Shown piece by piece: positions 3,197-10,677 of a DNA stretch of 38,168 nucleotides. The stretch is from Chloroflexota bacterium (GTDB taxonomy: Bacteria > Chloroflexota > Anaerolineae > UBA4142 > SHND01): positions 1 through 38,168 of the forward strand of contig JAKOPZ010000189.1 of the NCBI GenBank assembly GCA_029778615.1, written 5' to 3'. Position 1 is the first letter of the stretch. Every line of letters begins with the position of its first letter. The notes under the pieces are model-generated. The model saw only the letters and a program-made list of their open reading frames with translations. It did not search any database and had not been told where the DNA came from. The position numbers and the translations under genes are program-made.

Positions 3197-3219
3197 CTCG
3201 AATGCAACTTCAAGAACGA

Positions 3220-3253
3220 AACCTTCTGATGAGAAACGTCAGAAGGTTTTTTT
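3220..3253 (+). terminator. Intrinsic terminator of the folB-folKE unit
   Basis: A 10-bp perfect stem (AACCTTCTGA at 3220-3229 with TCAGAAGGTT at 3239-3248) has a 9-base loop and runs into a T-tract at 3247-3253. It lies 24 bases after the folKE stop and separates that unit from the transporter promoter. Confidence 0.88.
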
Positions 3254-3270
3254 GTTTCAAAGAATTTCGC

Positions 3271-3299
3271 TTGAAAATGGAACAGGGATTTGCTACAAT
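3271..3299 (+). promoter_or_regulatory. Sigma-70-type promoter for the transporter/DUF3800 unit
   Basis: TTGAAA at 3271-3276 and TACAAT at 3294-3299 are separated by exactly 17 bases, with a TG at 3291-3292 giving an extended -10. The predicted start near 3306 leaves a 5' leader of about 22 bases, too short for a riboswitch. Confidence 0.75.
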
Positions 3300-3327
3300 C
3301 CACCCACTTTACAAACAAGGAGCGAAG

Positions 3328-3999
3328 GTGCGTTATTCTCAATGGTTTCTACTCATCGCGACAGTTTTTGTTACCTGCCTCGTCGTCGCAAATATCATCG
3401 CGGTCAAATTGGTTGATATTTTTGGTTTGATTTTGCCCGCTGCCGTTATTGTTTTCCCAATCAGTTACATCGTGGGCGATGTGCTAACTGAAGTGTATGG
3501 ATATGCGGCGGCGCGGCGCGTGATTTGGATTGGATTCTTTTGCAATCTCATCGCTGTCGCCGCGATTTGGTTCGGTGGCTTGTTACCGCCCGCGTCCTTT
3601 TGGCAGGGACAGAATTCGTACGAGATAATTCTCGGTTTCACCCCGCGTCTCTTGCTTGCATCCTTTGCTGCGTATCTCATTGGCGAATTTGCCAACTCGC
3701 TTGTGCTGGCAAAGATGAAGGTAACGACGAATGGGCGTTGGCTATGGGCGCGCACCATTGGTTCGACATTTGTCGGGCAGGGCTTGGACTCGCTCGTTTT
3801 TATTTCGATTGCTTTTGTGGGAGTCATTCCCTTTGAGGGATTGTTCAGCGCAATCGTCGCGCAGTGGCTCTTTAAGGTTGGCTATGAGATTGCCGCGACG
3901 CCACTAACTTACGCGGTTGTGAATTGGCTCAAGCGCAGCGAAGGGCTGGACACATTTGACCGTCATACCAATCTTAATCCTTTGACTCTCGGAGAATAA
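3328..3999 (+). CDS. Queuosine precursor (preQ0/preQ1) transporter, YhhQ/VUT-1 family
   Basis: This 223-residue integral membrane protein has about six hydrophobic segments. The first is QWFLLIATVFVTCLVVANIIAV, followed by the family-typical ILPAAVIVFPISYIVGDVLTEVYGYAAARRVIW. Later come LLLASFAAYLIGEFANSLVLAKMK and the TIGSTFVGQGLDSLVFISIAF stretch. The family (COG1738, YhhQ) imports 7-deazaguanine precursors of queuosine. The GTG at 3328 is preferred over the TTG at 3193 because AAGGAG at 3317-3322 lies 5 bases upstream and the promoter at 3271-3299 lies inside the longer frame. Only 6 bases separate it from the DUF3800 gene, and a transglycosylase-fold gene lies 5 kb downstream. This suggests it supplies base for that system, though supplying tRNA queuosine is the conservative alternative. 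Confidence 0.88.
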   Translation: MRYSQWFLLIATVFVTCLVVANIIAVKLVDIFGLILPAAVIVFPISYIVGDVLTEVYGYAAARRVIWIGFFCNLIAVAAIWFGGLLPPASFWQGQNSYEIILGFTPRLLLASFAAYLIGEFANSLVLAKMKVTTNGRWLWARTIGSTFVGQGLDSLVFISIAFVGVIPFEGLFSAIVAQWLFKVGYEIAATPLTYAVVNWLKRSEGLDTFDRHTNLNPLTLGE

Positions 4000-4005
4000 C
4001 GGCAC

Positions 4006-4602
4006 GTGGCAATCGTCACTGTGTTCGTGGATGAATCATTCTCGGCGGCGACGAGCGATGACTATTTTGTCGTGGTGATTGGCGTCATAACCCAAGACCG
4101 TCGTCGCTTGGAGTTGATGACTCGACGAATACGCAAGCAACGCGTCAAAGCAAGCTCGGAATTCAAAGCGTCCGTAACACCGCCCAAGTTGGTGAAACGG
4201 TTCTTGAAAGAGTTGGCAGAGGATTCAAACATTTCTATTGTCGCTGCGATTTGGGAAAGCAAGAGAGATGCAGTTGGGGATTTTGAGGAATTGTATCGGC
4301 AATTGGTGGCGCGCTGTGTTTTGAGAGCCATCAAGAAATTTCCACGCGCTAAAGTGCATATTGATAAACGGTATTCGCACAAGCGCGGACAGCAAGCGCT
4401 CGATTTGGAAATTCGGCGCGCGCTCGCGTTGGTGCGCGGCAATGTTGTCCAAATTTTTCAGGAAGATTCGCGACGCGTCCAAGAGTTGGCGGCAGCCGAT
4501 TTTGTGGCATGGGCATTCATGCAGCACTATTGTCATGCGAATGCGGAATTTTACAATTTGATTCGCGCGCGCGTAATTCACATGGACAATTTGAGCCAAT
4601 AA
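4006..4602 (+). CDS. DUF3800 family protein (RNase H-like fold predicted)
   Basis: This 198-residue protein starts with VTVFVDESFSAA, the acidic Asp-Glu motif (D9, E10) that opens DUF3800 proteins. A hydrophobic strand follows (YFVVVIGVIT), then a central acidic strand (KVHIDKRYSHKRG) and a C-terminal aspartate helix (ELAAADFVAWAFMQHY). DUF3800 members are predicted to have an RNase H-like fold and often lie near mobile or defence genes, but their function is unknown. It starts with GTG 6 bases after the transporter stop and is probably co-transcribed with it (GGAG at 3991-3994). Base use already shifts toward AT here compared with the fol genes. Confidence 0.65.
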   Translation: MAIVTVFVDESFSAATSDDYFVVVIGVITQDRRRLELMTRRIRKQRVKASSEFKASVTPPKLVKRFLKELAEDSNISIVAAIWESKRDAVGDFEELYRQLVARCVLRAIKKFPRAKVHIDKRYSHKRGQQALDLEIRRALALVRGNVVQIFQEDSRRVQELAAADFVAWAFMQHYCHANAEFYNLIRARVIHMDNLSQ

Positions 4603-4739
4603 AAAAAGCGGCTCCCCCTAGGCACCGATAACCACCGTCTCGCCGCAGACGCGTCTGCGGGTGACGGAGTGGGACTCCCAAATATGGAGCCAGTGACACT
4701 AGGACTTACGAGTCGCTACAAACACTATATGTCGTCACT
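4603..4739. other. Structured non-coding spacer with perfect 18-bp palindrome
   Basis: The 137-base gap between the DUF3800 gene and the cassette holds nested inverted repeats. The core CCGCAGACGCGTCTGCGG (4643-4660) is a perfect palindrome. It is flanked by CCGTC/GACGG (4635-4639 and 4663-4667), and further out by GGCTCC/GGAGCC (4610-4615 and 4685-4690). A further AGTGAC (4692-4697) is complementary to GTCACT (4734-4739), which abuts the start codon of the next gene. No Shine-Dalgarno site and no good promoter are visible. It could be an operator, a structured leader RNA, a terminator without a U-tract, or the end of an inserted element. Confidence 0.6.
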
Positions 4740-5192
4740 ATGAAAAAGTCAACCCCAAAACGGAAATTGTTGCTGATTGCCTGTTCGCAACGCAAAAAAC
4801 GGGACAAAGGATTAATGCCCGCGCTCGAACGCTATGATGGGGTGAATTATCTTGTAATTAAAAAGTTGATGCGTGAAGGAAAATTCCCAAAGAATGTGGA
4901 CATCAAAATTCTTTCAGCAAAATATGGGTTGATTGATGCAGAGACGCCGATTCCATATTACAATCGGCGGATGGATAGACAACGGGCAGTCGAATTGCAA
5001 ACACAGGTCAAACGAGAACTCAACAAGATCGCTCACAGACATTATGAAGAGACTTTTGTGAATATGGGGAAAACCTATTTGATTGCAATGGAAAGCTATA
5101 ATGATGTATTGATGCCAGCAGCAATAAAAATTGCCGAGGGTGGAATCGGGCAAAAAATGAAGAGAATGCGCGATTGGATTCTTTCAGATTAG
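4740..5192 (+). CDS. Small CSxxK protein, DUF6884-like
   Basis: This 150-residue cytoplasmic protein is basic and its first strand, KLLLIACSQRKK, ends in a Cys-Ser-x-x-Lys motif (C15, S16, K19). A second motif, ILSAKYGLIDAETPIPYYNRRM (about residues 57-78), resembles the second conserved block of DUF6884-type proteins as I recall it. Function in the family is unknown. The spacing Cys-x3-Lys equals the start of the PCx3KPY motif of archaeosine synthase ArcS, which acts on preQ0 in RNA. That similarity is only suggestive. It is the first gene of the cassette, 19 bases before the NurA-like gene, and clearly less GC-rich than the housekeeping genes around it. It has no Shine-Dalgarno site, and the start is taken as the first ATG of the frame. 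Confidence 0.6.
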   Translation: MKKSTPKRKLLLIACSQRKKRDKGLMPALERYDGVNYLVIKKLMREGKFPKNVDIKILSAKYGLIDAETPIPYYNRRMDRQRAVELQTQVKRELNKIAHRHYEETFVNMGKTYLIAMESYNDVLMPAAIKIAEGGIGQKMKRMRDWILSD

Positions 5193-5211
5193 CGAAAAAC
5201 GGGAAAATCGA

Positions 5212-7095
5212 ATGTCAAGCATTTCTGATATTTATGGAAGCTATCGCGATGCGTTGAACTTTTCACGCGACAAATATACTGCTATGTACAACGGTCGCGC
5301 GGAAAACGCGCGCGACTTTTATGATGCGTTTTTAAAACAACTCGTATGCGGGTTTGATACACTCTTTCAAGATCAAGGATCGCAGCGCGCTTTGCACAAT
5401 TACATCGAACGCTTCTTTGGCGGCAAGACAATTGACTTTGTGGCGATTGATGGGCATAACGAGAAAAAAACTTTTCAAGATTTCATTGTTTTCGCCGCGT
5501 GCGCGTATGGTGCTAAAGGGCAGGTGAATCTTACAGACAATCCGCCCACAATCCAATATCAGAAATGGACGATTGACAAAGATGTCTCGATGGTTACTTA
5601 TATCCCCGTTCCATTTTCGCAATTTGCTGATGTGATTGACCAAGAACATCGTGAAACCTTCCTCGTTTCTGACAGTGAAAAAATAGACTTGTCGAGCATT
5701 GACACGTGGATGATGGAACTCGCAGAGGTTTATCTAGCCTACAATGTCGCTTCCTCATCGGCGCTGGAACGACCACGCATGATACTGATGGATCGTTCCC
5801 CAAGCAGCATGTTGGCGGATGTTGCATTCAAACCCGAAGCATTGACAATGCTCAAATATCCATATGACCGACGAGAACTAACCATTGAGGATGCAACAGT
5901 CGCGCTGGCACATCCATTCAATGATGCTCTGAGTATTCCCTCGTTGAAACGTTTTCGCCAATATATGGCAATCCTTGCCGAGTTGCATCGTCAGCGTTCC
6001 AAGCAAATCAACCTGAACCAATTTGCGTCTAAAAGAGGTTTGGATTTGCACGACCTTCGCGATGCGATTGATTATTTGACTCAGCAACGCGAATCTGAAA
6101 CTCAAATTATTCCCCCTTTTGCGCGAATCGAAAATCGCGGGGGAGAAGATTGGCTTGTCACCGAAACGGATTGTGCGACATCGTGGGCATATACCGTAAG
6201 TTTGTTTGAGAATATTTGTCACCGACTCTTTATCGAAAAAGACCAACGCGCACTGCTCTACGAGTCACCCGATGAATATGGTGTCGTGCGAATGCGTTGG
6301 ATGTCGCCCGATGATGTTCGCTTCTTGATTGCAGTCGGATTGCGCGCCTTGATTGAAAAATGTTGGGAACGCAAGATTCTATTGACGGGAATCATCAAAG
6401 ATTCCGCCTCACGTTATTTCTCGCGCAACTATATGGGCGTCATGAAATTACTTGCCGCGCAAGATTCAGGCGAAGGGTACCCCGACTTAGTCGAGTTGGA
6501 TGTGCGTCAACTTCCGTGGACGGATCGGATTTTGCTCGAATTGCTCCCACTGCTGGATAATAATTTGAATGCGCCTTGGACAACCATCGAGTTTGACTCT
6601 ACCTACATGACGTTACATGCGGAAGCCGACGAAAGAGGACGCTCAAAAATCGCTGGCGTGAAACAATATATTGTTGCGCCAGAGCGACTCTTTGCGCGTT
6701 CCTTGGGCCAGTTTTTTCTCAAGCGCGAAAAAAATACACCTCTGATGGGACATGTTGTGTTCATTGATCGTTTAGTATTTCCCGAATGGGATCACGAGGC
6801 GCTCGATCAAGTCACAATCCAGACGCCGCTATTGGGACGCATCCAACCTCTATGTTATCCAACGCGCGATACTCTGAACGTTGGGCAAATGCTGAATATG
6901 TACTTGCTCAACATTCTCACGCGCAATCATTTTCCCGAAGTGATTGGCTATCCTGACCCATTGCATAAAGCGGATTGGGGGGCAAAATCGGTAGGCAAAC
7001 GGATTGGAGCGATGGTAGCGTCCAGCACTTTTTCTTTTCGTTCGCAGCCGCTGCATCGCACTTTTCGCGATCTGCGCGATTCGTTTAAACGTTAA
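5212..7095 (+). CDS. NurA-like nuclease domain protein, partner of HerA
   Basis: This 627-residue protein has scattered motifs of the NurA 5'-3' nuclease fold. They are a first acidic strand DFVAIDG (residues 75-81, D80), a second acidic strand RMILMDRSPSS (189-199, D194) after a helix with ELAEVY, and ILLTGIIKDSASRYF (389-403, with the K-D/T-S turn typical of NurA). The C-terminus has HVVFIDRLVFPEWD (514-527) and GYPDPLHKADWGA (579-591), matching the usual ending 'P-x-x-L-x-x-A-D'. The middle (about 245-330) is an insertion that may include a winged-helix-like segment. NurA nucleases work with HerA, and the HerA gene follows after 12 bases, which supports the call. The family match is my reading of motifs, not a search result. 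Confidence 0.6.
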   Translation: MSSISDIYGSYRDALNFSRDKYTAMYNGRAENARDFYDAFLKQLVCGFDTLFQDQGSQRALHNYIERFFGGKTIDFVAIDGHNEKKTFQDFIVFAACAYGAKGQVNLTDNPPTIQYQKWTIDKDVSMVTYIPVPFSQFADVIDQEHRETFLVSDSEKIDLSSIDTWMMELAEVYLAYNVASSSALERPRMILMDRSPSSMLADVAFKPEALTMLKYPYDRRELTIEDATVALAHPFNDALSIPSLKRFRQYMAILAELHRQRSKQINLNQFASKRGLDLHDLRDAIDYLTQQRESETQIIPPFARIENRGGEDWLVTETDCATSWAYTVSLFENICHRLFIEKDQRALLYESPDEYGVVRMRWMSPDDVRFLIAVGLRALIEKCWERKILLTGIIKDSASRYFSRNYMGVMKLLAAQDSGEGYPDLVELDVRQLPWTDRILLELLPLLDNNLNAPWTTIEFDSTYMTLHAEADERGRSKIAGVKQYIVAPERLFARSLGQFFLKREKNTPLMGHVVFIDRLVFPEWDHEALDQVTIQTPLLGRIQPLCYPTRDTLNVGQMLNMYLLNILTRNHFPEVIGYPDPLHKADWGAKSVGKRIGAMVASSTFSFRSQPLHRTFRDLRDSFKR

Positions 7096-7107
7096 GGAGA
7101 AACCACC

Positions 7108-8958
7108 ATGTTCGTCGCAAACATCATTGGCACGTTGATGAGGATTGAAGAAGATTCGATTACTCGCTATCGCTACGAAATTTGGTTTGACTATACGCGC
7201 AAAGCCATCAATACCATTGGGGAAGGCGCAATGCTCGCGATTCCAAATTTTTCTGGAAATGATAACGAGACACATTACAGCATTCTCGAAGTCACAGGCA
7301 TTTTGCCCATTCATTACGCGCTCGGAAATGACACGAGCGGTTATCCTGGATTTGTCGTTGAAGCGGCGCACAATGCAGGACAGGATTGGACGACGCAAGC
7401 GGATAGGTCAACGGAAGACACAACAAAAATTCGCTGTGTTGGGGTACCGACAAATCTTGAAATCGTTGAGAAACATTTTGCAAAAACGGCTAGCGAGCCC
7501 CACGTGCAAGAAGAAGGTAATTTGCCGATGGTGGGTCATCCCGCCCAGTTGCTCGATACTGCAATGACGGAACGAATCGCCAATTTGAACATTGATTTGC
7601 AAAACGATAATGTAATTCAAATTGGAACGTTGGTGCGGGATGAGAATGTGCGCGCTTATTTGCGAATTGAAGAACTCATCAAAGTCCACTTTGGGTTGTT
7701 CGGTTTCACTGGTGCAGGTAAATCAAATCTCTTGAGTACGCTTGTTCGCAAGCTACTCAGTCAAGAAAAAGAAAAAGTAAAAATCGTGTTTGTTGATTTG
7801 ATGAGCGAGTACACGGGACTGCTACTGGATCAGTTGGTCGAATTGGAAGGCGCACGGCTGATCAATATCGGAGCCAAGACCACACCTGAATCTGTCCTCA
7901 CTTACTATCATTTGAAAAGTGAGACCAACAAGCACCCTGATCAAGATAACAAAGAAGTAATCAAAAACAATCTCGCGCACGCAACAACCGATTTGCTCAA
8001 CACGACAGTTCTCCCAAAAGCATTAAAGCAGCGTCAAGATGATTTACGGAGACCAATCGCCAAGCTCCTGTCGCAGGGAAAAGTTCTTTTTGTCAGAGAA
8101 GAACAAGTACTGATGGGAGAAATAATCAGAGACGCGGAATCGGAATTTCGTGGCAATATGGGCAATGCAGGAAATGCGGTACGCCAGTTTGTGAGAAGTC
8201 TTGTACAGAAATATGGCAAGGTTGTGCCAAATTCAGAAACAGCAAAAGCGATTGAAAAAGAAATTAACGACTTTGCAGCATCGAATAAACTCTCAGACAC
8301 CGCATTCCAAAACCTTTCGATCGTTCAAAATCGCTGTGCCGAAGCGGCGGAGCAACCACAAGAAACAATTCCCACAAGCGCGCAGATTGGCACAAGCCAA
8401 ATCATTGATGAATTGAATGATCGCTCTCGCTCGAGTCTACTTGTTTTTCAGGCACATGATCCCGATGCGCTCCGTGAGTTCGCTGCAAAACTCGCGGGCA
8501 TTGCGTACGAGTCACGGCGCAAGACAGGACAAATCACACCACTTGTTTCCTTCATCTTTGACGAGGCAGATGAGTTTATTCCTCAGCAACCAACAAGCGA
8601 TACTCAGAGGAACACCAAAGCTGCGGCGATGACGCTCGCACGACGCGGACGTAAATTCGGTTTGGGACTTGGAATTGCAACACAACGCATCCGTTATCTT
8701 GATACCAGCATCCTCGCACAGCCCCACACCTATTTCGTTTCCAAGCTCCCGCGCAAAACAGATCGCGAAGCCATCGCTGAAGCATTTGGAATTTCTGAAG
8801 ACATGTTTCGCCAAACGTTCAAGTTCAAGAAAGGGGATTGGCTCTTGGCGAGCTATGATGCCGCAGGACTTGAAGCAATACCGATACCGATTCACGCGGA
8901 GGATGCGAATACAAAAATTCTTGAATTTGTAGAAAGTCAAAAAACCGCCCCGCACTAA
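7108..8958 (+). CDS. HerA-type hexameric DNA-translocating ATPase
   Basis: This 616-residue protein has an N-terminal beta-rich HAS-barrel-like region (about residues 1-110). The FtsK/HerA ATPase core follows: Walker A GFTGAGKSN (199-207), the post-A strand VKIVFVDLMSEYTGLL, Walker B VSFIFDEADEF (480-490, D485/E486), the arginine region LARRGRKFGLGLGIATQRIRYLD (510-532) and the C-terminal KKGDWLLA strand. A helical insertion (about 260-440) lies between the Walker motifs. HerA forms a hexameric ring that pumps DNA to NurA in end resection, and bacterial HerA proteins are common in anti-phage systems. A good AAGGAG site precedes the ATG by 9 bases. It lies 12 bases after the NurA-like gene and 20 bases before the transglycosylase-like gene, so the three must form one transcript. 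Confidence 0.88.
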   Translation: MFVANIIGTLMRIEEDSITRYRYEIWFDYTRKAINTIGEGAMLAIPNFSGNDNETHYSILEVTGILPIHYALGNDTSGYPGFVVEAAHNAGQDWTTQADRSTEDTTKIRCVGVPTNLEIVEKHFAKTASEPHVQEEGNLPMVGHPAQLLDTAMTERIANLNIDLQNDNVIQIGTLVRDENVRAYLRIEELIKVHFGLFGFTGAGKSNLLSTLVRKLLSQEKEKVKIVFVDLMSEYTGLLLDQLVELEGARLINIGAKTTPESVLTYYHLKSETNKHPDQDNKEVIKNNLAHATTDLLNTTVLPKALKQRQDDLRRPIAKLLSQGKVLFVREEQVLMGEIIRDAESEFRGNMGNAGNAVRQFVRSLVQKYGKVVPNSETAKAIEKEINDFAASNKLSDTAFQNLSIVQNRCAEAAEQPQETIPTSAQIGTSQIIDELNDRSRSSLLVFQAHDPDALREFAAKLAGIAYESRRKTGQITPLVSFIFDEADEFIPQQPTSDTQRNTKAAAMTLARRGRKFGLGLGIATQRIRYLDTSILAQPHTYFVSKLPRKTDREAIAEAFGISEDMFRQTFKFKKGDWLLASYDAAGLEAIPIPIHAEDANTKILEFVESQKTAPH

Positions 8959-8978
8959 AAATCAAAGCGATTCAGTTT

Positions 8979-10163
8979 ATGCGAACCATCAATCATAACG
9001 GCAAAGAACTTGCCACTCCGAATCTCTTTGCCAGTTACCGCCTCGGTGATGTTACTTCCGCAGGCGTCAAATTCTTTCCGTGGAAAATCACCAACACTCA
9101 AGCCGTGCTTGTCAACGCTTATGATTTGATCGAAAATCCGAAATGTTCAGGGTATCGCAAACGCTTGACCGAACAAGGCAAAACGATTCGACAACACATC
9201 GAGTTCAATGGTCCCTTGATGATTGATTCGGGAGCGTATTATTTTCTTCGGAGCGGGAACATTCACGTTCGTCCCACCGATGTTCTGCAAGTTGAACAAA
9301 ATTCTGACGCAGACCTCGGCGTGATTCTCGATCATCCCTTTCCTCCCAAAGCGAGCGACAAACAACAGCGCATCAACCGCACCCTAGCAAACACGCGTAC
9401 GATGTTTGCCAATTTTACAAAAGAGGAACATTCCGCGTTTGAATTACTGCCTGTGATTCACGGACACGATGCCAAGACGATAAAAAAGACGATTGACCGT
9501 TTGTATCATATTTCTGAAAAATACAACGGCGGCAAACTGGACAAACTAGGAATCGGCAGTCTCGCGCCTCTCGCGCAAAATGGGAATAAAGAACTTGCCG
9601 TAGAAGTCCTCACAAGCGTTCGAAGCTATTTGCCCAACACATATCTCCATTGTTTTTCAATGGGGTCGTCGCTTCTAATGTTGCTGGCTTTTTATTGCGG
9701 CGCAGATACAGTAGATTCTCAAACTTGGATTGTGAGCGCGGCATTCAAATTCATTCAGATGCCTGGACATGCTATCGTTCGCCTCGCCACACGCGAACGT
9801 GCCGCGAATCCCTATCGTTATCACAAGAAAATGCAAGAGCTCAAAAGGTTAATCCGCGATTTGTACGAACAGGAAGAATTCGTCCTGAAAGATTGGCAAT
9901 CGGGTGAGATTCTGCGCGATCCGAACGAGAGCGATCTAGACCAATACATCAATGAATTGACCGACCGACGGGGCGACCGTCATCTTCACAATCGTGCTTG
10001 TCACAATCTCTGGGTTTTCAATTTCGAAGCAAAACGCGCTCGCCAAGAAAAACAGCATGGAAAATTTGAGGAATTCATTGAAGGACGACTCAAAGGTACC
10101 AAATACTATGACGCTTTTGTGTATGCTAAACAAAGAAAGAGGGATTTGAAAATTCGCGCTTGA
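8979..10163 (+). CDS. Divergent tRNA-guanine transglycosylase-fold protein (DpdA/TGT-like)
   Basis: This 394-residue protein follows the TGT (beta/alpha)8 motif order. LATPNLFASY (11-20) stands for the N-terminal TP-F-PV block. MIDSGAYYF (81-89, D83) stands for DSGGFQ, and GVILDHPFPP (114-123, D118) for the second aspartate. LLPVIHGH and KLGIGSLAPL (189-198) follow. HCFSMGSSLLMLLAFYCGADTVDSQTW (224-250) places D246 at the nucleophile position of the FDCxxPTR motif. The C-terminus ACHNLWVFNFEAKRARQ (340-356) matches the TGT ending. The CxCxxC zinc ligands are missing. TGTs swap guanine for a 7-deazaguanine in tRNA, and the paralogue DpdA does so in DNA. The setting with NurA/HerA genes favours DNA as substrate, but this is inference. 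The stop codon lies inside the -35 box of the trp promoter. Confidence 0.72.
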   Translation: MRTINHNGKELATPNLFASYRLGDVTSAGVKFFPWKITNTQAVLVNAYDLIENPKCSGYRKRLTEQGKTIRQHIEFNGPLMIDSGAYYFLRSGNIHVRPTDVLQVEQNSDADLGVILDHPFPPKASDKQQRINRTLANTRTMFANFTKEEHSAFELLPVIHGHDAKTIKKTIDRLYHISEKYNGGKLDKLGIGSLAPLAQNGNKELAVEVLTSVRSYLPNTYLHCFSMGSSLLMLLAFYCGADTVDSQTWIVSAAFKFIQMPGHAIVRLATRERAANPYRYHKKMQELKRLIRDLYEQEEFVLKDWQSGEILRDPNESDLDQYINELTDRRGDRHLHNRACHNLWVFNFEAKRARQEKQHGKFEEFIEGRLKGTKYYDAFVYAKQRKRDLKIRA

Positions 10164-10188
10164 CACGCGCCTCCCATTCTGCTATATT
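10160..10188 (+). promoter_or_regulatory. Strong sigma-70-type promoter of the trp operon
   Basis: A consensus TTGACA at 10160-10165 and TATATT at 10183-10188 are 17 bases apart. The -35 box contains the stop codon (10161-10163) of the transglycosylase-like gene, so the spacer between the units is fully compressed. Transcription should begin near 10195, at the start of the T-box leader. No separate terminator for the upstream cassette is visible. Confidence 0.85.
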
Positions 10189-10262
10189 ACCGCCAACAAA
10201 GACGCTGACGCAGACGAGTACGCGTTTTACGAATTTCAGAAAGTCCGTTGTCATCAAGCAAC

Positions 10263-10290
10263 ACAACATCTCATGCTGATGTTGTTTTTT
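10263..10290 (+). terminator. Terminator-like hairpin inside T-box Stem I
   Basis: ACAACATC (10263-10270) pairs perfectly with GATGTTGT (10278-10285) and is followed by six T. The same bases also take part in a longer alternative stem: 10251-10267 against 10301-10317, 16 of 17 paired. The two forms exclude each other. It may be a pause or early terminator, or may stop read-through from the upstream cassette. Confidence 0.45.
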
Positions 10291-10527
10291 ACGAAGGTGC
10301 GTTGTGTTGATTGATGAGGATGTGAGACGGACAATTACGAAAACGCCGAATGGACTGCCGAGTTTTGGAATCGAACGGGTAGGGGCGACGGTTTATCCTC
10401 GCCCAACATCAAGTAAATTCCAACGGAAAACGCCCCCGTTATCGCGGCTGAGGGGATGAAGATTAGAGACTGGACATTAGCATGCCGTCTCGTCGAGTCC
10501 CTGCTAGAGTGAGACTGGCTCAACCTT

Positions 10528-10552
10528 TCCGTCGCACCGCGACGGATTTTTT
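10528..10552 (+). terminator. Second terminator-like hairpin in the trp leader
   Basis: CCGTCGC (10529-10535) and GCGACGG (10539-10545) form a perfect 7-bp GC-rich stem with a 3-base loop, followed by six T at 10547-10552. It occupies the Stem III position of a T-box but looks like a complete intrinsic terminator on its own. Confidence 0.55.
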
Positions 10553-10644
10553 GTTTTTGGGCGGTTCGCTGTGAACGTTACGGCGAACGTTCCTTACGAC
10601 ACAGAGCGGTCTCAATTAGGGTGGTACCACGGGCAGTATTTCAA

Positions 10645-10677
10645 AACGCTCGTCCCTTTCGGGATGAGCGTTTTTTT
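10645..10677 (+). terminator. T-box attenuator terminator before trpE
   Basis: AACGCTCGTCCC (10645-10656) pairs with GGGATGAGCGTT (10661-10672) over 12 bp with a TTTC loop and a T-run at 10671-10677. It directly follows the T-box sequence and ends 17 bases before the trpE start, the standard arrangement for tRNA-controlled attenuation. Confidence 0.92.

Follow-up and report, generated by a model that had tools for sequence, protein, structure and literature searches.

A candidate restriction-modification cassette coupling NurA-HerA to 7-deazaguanine marking in Chloroflexota

Introduction

What could bring a small CSxxK protein, a NurA-like nuclease, a HerA ATPase and a guanine transglycosylase together in one row of genes that ends in the promoter of a tryptophan (trp) operon? 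The question is raised by contig JAKOPZ010000189.1 of a Chloroflexota bacterium (assembly GCA_029778615.1), whose 38,168 nucleotides are referred to here as the window. A reading made from the letters alone (the sequence-only reading) had described four co-directional genes at 4740-10163, here A to D, with intergenic gaps of 19, 12 and 20 bases, AT-richer than their flanks and with the last stop codon in the trp promoter, all of which we confirmed. Its four-gene extent fell short, however: the unit reaches further upstream, and a transporter gene (about 3328-3999) and a DUF3800 gene (4006-4602) that had been overlooked are to be added, giving a low-GC inserted block of six genes at about 3197-10163 (GC of 0.468 across 3197-10178, against 0.544-0.545 in the flanks). 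We propose that this block encodes a modular restriction-modification system, a relative of the Dpd islands, in which a 7-deazaguanine would serve as the self mark and the NurA-HerA pair as the restriction half, a reading that we consider probable, if far from certain. The genes are as follows, with protein lengths in amino acids (aa):

3328..3999, plus strand: YhhQ-type (COG1738, Pfam Vut_1) preQ0/queuosine-precursor transporter gene; Pfam 3.8e-52
4006..4602, plus strand: gene for a DUF3800 protein, accessory; Pfam 6.9e-7
4740..5192, plus strand: gene A, DUF6884 protein (150 aa), proposed DpdC-like enzyme on inserted preQ0; Pfam 7.1e-9, over the cut-off
5212..7095, plus strand: gene B, divergent NurA-like nuclease (627 aa); Pfam NurA 0.0026, below the cut-off
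7108..8958, plus strand: gene C, HerA-type hexameric DNA translocase ATPase (616 aa); Pfam DUF87 1.4e-18, over the cut-off
8979..10163, plus strand: gene D, tRNA/DNA-guanine transglycosylase (TGT) of type I (394 aa), proposed to insert preQ0 into DNA; Pfam TGT 2.8e-18, over the cut-off

Results

The gene set recurs across families

Seven genomes from six families (those of the window, G571, G604, G440, G714, G419 and G409) carry genes for the transporter, DUF6884, NurA, HerA and TGT side by side, and an eighth locus is truncated by its contig end. The four genes first described are a recurring unit, to which the transporter gene belongs as well. Because the arrangement recurs in other families, it lies far beyond chance, and we rejected a chance neighbourhood. 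Searching 396 genomes of the class with gene B recovered G571 (69% identity), where YhhQ and DUF6884 are followed by a TGT gene directly before NurA and HerA. The same trp site in G604, a member of the same genus, holds YhhQ-DUF3800-DUF6884-NurA-HerA-TGT; here NurA, HerA and TGT belong to a second lineage (TGT about 25% identical to gene D), whereas DUF6884 is 77% identical. Judged by these sequences, the NurA-HerA-TGT trio was swapped as a set while DUF6884 was retained. A profile of the second-lineage TGT led to G440, G714 and G419, all with YhhQ-DUF6884-NurA-HerA-TGT in that order (G714 with one extra open reading frame), and also to a third lineage in G409, arranged as YhhQ-TGT-NurA-HerA-large ATPase-DUF6884.

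A DUF6884 profile gave matches in 10 of the 381 genomes searched. Nine of the matches are intact; each lies beside YhhQ and eight are clearly next to a TGT gene, while the ninth locus (G633:C518) reads YhhQ-DUF6884-NurA-HerA, followed by a TGT candidate, recognised by motif only, that is truncated by the contig end. Two transporter genes followed by a DUF6884 stub (L086 465-2523, G599:C6) look like the decayed remains of a cassette of this kind. In the G571 locus (L015 2154-12005, G571:C284) the type I NurA-HerA-TGT genes are joined by those of a PIN-like protein, a BrxC/D-like ATPase and a macro-domain protein/DarT pair.

The putative effector module is exchanged within a near-constant frame

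The exchange extends beyond NurA-HerA. In G556 (the contig of L016), YhhQ-DUF3800-DUF6884 are retained, as is a TGT that shares 77% identity with gene D, and the place of NurA-HerA is taken by a 1804-aa DruE-like helicase (8.3e-134) with a PLD domain and a 426-aa protein. The Oligoflexia contig L017 likewise has the end of this helicase, followed up by a 428-aa protein gene and the TGT. This is apparently a second effector version, present in Chloroflexi and Oligoflexia and horizontally moved; the 426-428-aa protein that accompanies TGT and the DruE-like helicase/PLD in both (L016 3248-11137, G556:C98; L017 1-5099) has no family match.

Another locus ties the front of this frame to known Dpd islands: at G633:C63, YhhQ-DUF6884-DUF3800 precede two DpdA genes and DpdE, F, G and H (DpdG at 2e-22, the others very strong). 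By its matches this is a canonical-type Dpd island, with a predicted DUF6884 protein where DpdC belongs.

On a 40-kb cyanobacterial plasmid (AP018313.1, Aulosira laxa; L014 2502-13978), DUF6884 (44% identical to A), HerA-like, Mre11-like, Rad50-like and type II TGT genes share one stretch, which as annotated here is a third, putative effector version. Haloarchaeal plasmids (L005, L006, L008, L010) carry TGTs about 25% identical to gene D, with varying neighbours: DUF6884, a 'BREX ATP-binding' protein, a queuosine precursor transporter, QueD/QueE and Csa3; L005, L006 and L010 have an additional DpdA-like gene nearby. No relatives of B and NurA2 were found in plasmids.

Gene D is a TGT outside the canonical DpdA family

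The sequence-only reading had taken the 394-residue protein to be TGT-like, and besides the Pfam match it retains both catalytic aspartates, D83 and D246, in an alignment to the archaeosine TGT 1iq8. The CxCxxC zinc motif seen in other lineages is missing, as it is from the phage 9g enzyme. Gene D is nearer to archaeosine TGT than to DpdA and falls under both curated cut-offs: its best NCBIfam match is archaeosine TGT (1.5e-23; 82.9 bits against the TgtA curated cut-off of 350), while the curated DpdA family NF041059 gives 23.8 bits (cut-off 200) and the PADLOC DpdA model 5e-6, against 1e-114 or better for the true DpdA in L085. A search with this TGT of a phylum sample of 400 genomes at E 1e-15 returned its own genome only. 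In a TGT tree, limited by long branches, type I, the haloarchaeal plasmid TGTs and canonical DpdA form three well supported groups, with type II less firm and type III alone; on sequence grounds, coupling to NurA-HerA involves at least three TGT lineages.

Genes B and C form a putative NurA-HerA pair

Gene C is readily recognised: its best PADLOC model is HerA 'Type III coevolved' (3.8e-101), and it carries a HerA central domain with Walker A GFTGAGKS (K205) and Walker B FIFDEAD. Gene B is far more divergent, scoring 17.7 bits against Pfam NurA (its orthologue 19.3 bits, 8.6e-4) where the cut-off is 21. It has an IDG motif at D80 and PDPLHKADWGA near its end, and sits in the slot held by clear NurAs in other loci. 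These sub-threshold profile matches, shared motifs and gene position suggest that it is NurA-like. An AlphaFold model from a two-sequence alignment was discarded (pLDDT 33.6), comparison with clear NurAs by hhalign gave no signal, the profiles being too shallow, and PDB sequence searches with gene B and NurA2 returned no credible match.

Gene A probably fills the DpdC slot

The CSxxK protein is best read as a DUF6884 protein filling the DpdC slot. It has the invariant CS-x-RK motif and weak matches to DpdC (PADLOC, 7.5e-4) and YaaA. Its AlphaFold model (pLDDT 80, pTM 0.78) is closest to 2q07 (AF0587; Z 8.7 over 117 residues, root-mean-square deviation 3.9) and also resembles YaaA 5caj (Z 6.2 over 136 residues, deviation 3.9), although unrelated FtsZ chains reach the same Z; VIA structure comparison was the sole source of both likenesses. 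Foldseek gave no match under 1e-3 with this model, and a PDB sequence search with DUF6884 gave no credible one. The 2q07 protein may be ArcS-like, although our literature search did not confirm this. One homologue of gene A weakly matches DUF5591 (0.024), a domain of archaeosine synthases.

DUF6884 has been reported as a domain of DpdC (PMC11888242), which turns dPreQ0 into dADG (PMC12839542), and a DpdC-like activity has been suggested for phage ArcS proteins (PMC6884629); we therefore infer that gene A acts on preQ0 after its insertion. The claim that the known Dpd partners are lacking accordingly stands in part: PADLOC matched neither DpdB nor DpdD-K among the five genes at 4006-10163, but the DpdC slot is probably occupied, by a DUF6884 protein whose model is YaaA-like, YaaA being DpdC's family.

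The transporter may supply a scavenged precursor

The transporter gene, whose GTG start codon at 3328 was picked by comparison with G604, is the sole YhhQ copy in its genome. QueC was not found in this genome (assembly 95% complete), which seems unable to make preQ0. Within the genus, YhhQ is confined to the three genomes that have such a block, and two genomes without it still have the housekeeping Tgt. Across the class YhhQ is common (299 of 396 genomes), and we therefore dropped its presence as evidence in itself and rely on its adjacency and on the genus pattern. A second YhhQ lies elsewhere in the genomes of three loci (G571, G714 and G419), and Rfam reported no preQ1 riboswitch near the transporter. 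YhhQ near dpd islands has been reported previously (PMC11888242). The G556 and G604 loci, and the canonical Dpd island of G633, also include a DUF3800 gene.

Phages carry traces of the proposed marking genes

Two viral contigs bear on what the mark would do. L088, with terminase and major head protein genes, holds at 7803-9026 a type II TGT frame that starts with a stretch in which 22 residues are 77% identical to the HerA of type II operons. On the simplest reading, its phage would have taken the TGT from a HerA-TGT operon and lost the motor and nuclease. In L089, a DUF6884 gene (50% identical to A) stands directly before a DpdA-like gene. Both are as expected if the mark protects DNA. Relatives of B, NurA2 and the window TGT were not found in viral contigs.

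The block ends at a shared trp boundary

Two further features lie between or beyond the genes:

4605..4719, minus strand: DUF3800-III RNA motif between the DUF3800 gene and gene A, opposite to them (Rfam RF02962, 46.7 bits against a gathering score of 43.8)
10160..10188, plus strand: promoter-like TTGACA-17-TATATT of the trp leader, overlapping the gene D stop; right end of the inserted block

The gene D stop, TGA (10161-10163), falls inside the TTGACA box (10160-10165), with TATATT (10183-10188) 17 nucleotides downstream, and the box is kept in three relatives without these genes at the trp site. The block is absent from G454, of the same genus, where 1.57 kb between folB-folKE and trpE holds unrelated genes instead, for an alpha/beta hydrolase and for a toxin-antitoxin pair of PIN/AbrB type. 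In G454, G544, G556 and G604, homology with the window picks up again at 10149-10179, where gene D ends. The window TGT (10152-10163) and the TGT of G604 (L028 3142-3153), although unrelated, share a terminal KIRA and stop, encoded by identical bases next to the common trp promoter. These shared ends suggest cassette exchange at one boundary. Upstream of trpE, a T-box leader candidate (10196-10660; E 1.1e-15, 77 bits) scores below the family gathering score of 93, and a T-box probably regulates the trp operon. Rfam found no DUF3800-III RNA at gathering score in three other DUF3800-bearing loci of the study.

Discussion

How would such a cassette work? The YhhQ transporter would import preQ0, gene D would swap guanines of host DNA for it, and gene A would work on the nitrile of the inserted base, as DpdC does in giving the amide ADG, or in the manner of ArcS. 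HerA would load on unmarked incoming DNA and pump it, and NurA would degrade what is pumped; HerA may stand in for the ATPase role that DpdB has in classical Dpd. Three observations strengthen the link to 7-deazaguanine marking of DNA, already proposed from the window's letters: a transporter gene lies next to the set, a canonical Dpd island contains a member of the same DUF6884 family, and a viral contig has DUF6884 adjoining a DpdA-like gene. Several findings weigh against this proposal: gene D falls well under the DpdA cut-off and has no zinc motif, gene B is below the NurA cut-off with a poor structural model, no DpdB homologue was matched in the five genes, and all full NurA loci so far come from one bacterial class, in a limited sample.

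Comparison with known systems sets the cassette apart. It shares with Dpd islands (DpdA-K) a TGT and a DUF6884/YaaA-type protein in the putative DpdC slot, and one canonical island in this bacterial class opens with the same YhhQ-DUF6884-DUF3800 genes; unlike them, it has a TGT outside the canonical DpdA family and NurA-HerA instead. The published system nearest in parts is BREX-related capture (BRC), in which a HerA translocase accompanies a TGT in a subset of loci and 7-deazaguanine self-marking has been proposed; BRC, however, has PglZ, a BrxC-like protein, DUF4007 and a STAND NTPase as its basis, includes GNAT and lacks DpdC, and NurA is unmentioned in its paper (PMC12839542). None of PglZ, DUF6079 (BrxC-like), DUF4007 and STAND NTPase is among the Pfam or PADLOC matches of the window genes at 4006-10163. 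The archaeal and bacterial HerA-NurA end-resection pair likewise has adjacent genes and a motor feeding a nuclease, whereas the window pair, with its very divergent B, is coupled to base-marking genes rather than to Mre11-Rad50 (the HerA-Mre11-Rad50-TGT plasmid being the exception). HerA also serves with a nuclease as a defence effector in anti-phage systems (PMC11291478) and in CRISPR-associated NurA/HerA pairs (PMC10910872), a likeness echoed by the 'Type III coevolved' label of gene C, but in the literature consulted these are not described with TGT, DUF6884 and a preQ0 transporter. Druantia is approached through the DruE-like helicase in the YhhQ-DUF3800-DUF6884-TGT frame of the sister locus G556; the window itself is without DruE, and other Druantia proteins were not seen. 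In the literature searched, mostly outside subscription papers, nothing relevant joined 7-deazaguanine with NurA or preQ0 with HerA; an earlier description is possible.

Which DNA, if any, would carry the mark? The sequence-only reading had left two options, and of these self-marking with degradation of unmarked DNA is favoured. The other is a reversed, type IV-like logic, in which NurA-HerA would attack phage DNA with 7-deazaguanines while the TGT senses, strips or exchanges the modified base. In favour of such a scheme, a TGT reaction can in principle run either way, taking a base out or putting one in. Phages with 7-deazaguanine DNA do exist (PMC6884629). Since the cassette brings marking genes of its own, this option is nevertheless the less likely one: an operon with a precursor transporter and a DpdC-type enzyme would be expected to make the mark rather than remove it, and the same front end serves the canonical Dpd island, a self-marking system. 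We consider it unlikely, though the best of the alternatives.

The TGT and DUF6884 protein might instead mark invading DNA, or the nicked or resected product of NurA-HerA, so that the base would block or tag the invader. Archaeal HerA-NurA makes single-stranded ends (PMC5715905), which could be a TGT substrate, and the present data are compatible with either DNA being marked; yet a phage apparently keeps the TGT without the nuclease, which suggests a protective mark, and classical Dpd marks host DNA (PMC12839542). On balance marking of the invader seems distinctly improbable.

Slightly lower still we place the possibility that the TGT acts on tRNA, in a queuosine- or archaeosine-like side path with the transporter serving ordinary tRNA modification, while NurA-HerA works separately in repair or defence. 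The archaeosine TGT match of gene D and the commonness of YhhQ in the class would fit. Against this stand a separate housekeeping Tgt besides gene D, which relatives without YhhQ keep; the movement of NurA-HerA-TGT as a set, with several TGT lineages; and the length of the cassette proteins, 339-395 aa, well short of the 582-aa archaeosine TGT. That a defence hotspot merely gathered unrelated systems without joint function is very hard to credit: DUF3800, DarT/macro and toxin-antitoxin genes are also found at or near such sites, and a published list of putative CRISPR auxiliary genes includes NurA, HerA, DarT and DarG (PMC10910872), but the same set stands in operon-like order at different sites and in different families and is exchanged trio-wise.

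Taken together, self-marking with NurA-HerA as effector remains our preferred reading of the window. It may also be one instance of a broad modular class, in which a near-constant front (transporter, DUF6884, TGT) is combined with exchangeable modules (NurA-HerA of several lineages, HerA-Mre11-Rad50, a DruE-like helicase with PLD, or DpdE-H), immunity in this host runs on salvaged preQ0 that it cannot make, and phages steal the marking enzyme as counter-defence; this wider proposal is a tentative one, to which we give slightly less than even odds.

If the proposal is correct, NurA-HerA, an archaeal-style machine, would be a new effector type for base-modification immunity, and 7-deazaguanine marking would be a module reused with different DNA shredders. 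DUF6884 would gain a testable enzymatic role, and with about five genes the cassettes would be simpler to rebuild than Dpd islands, which can reach eleven. Such a system would also suggest an immunity that depends on a scavenged nucleobase.

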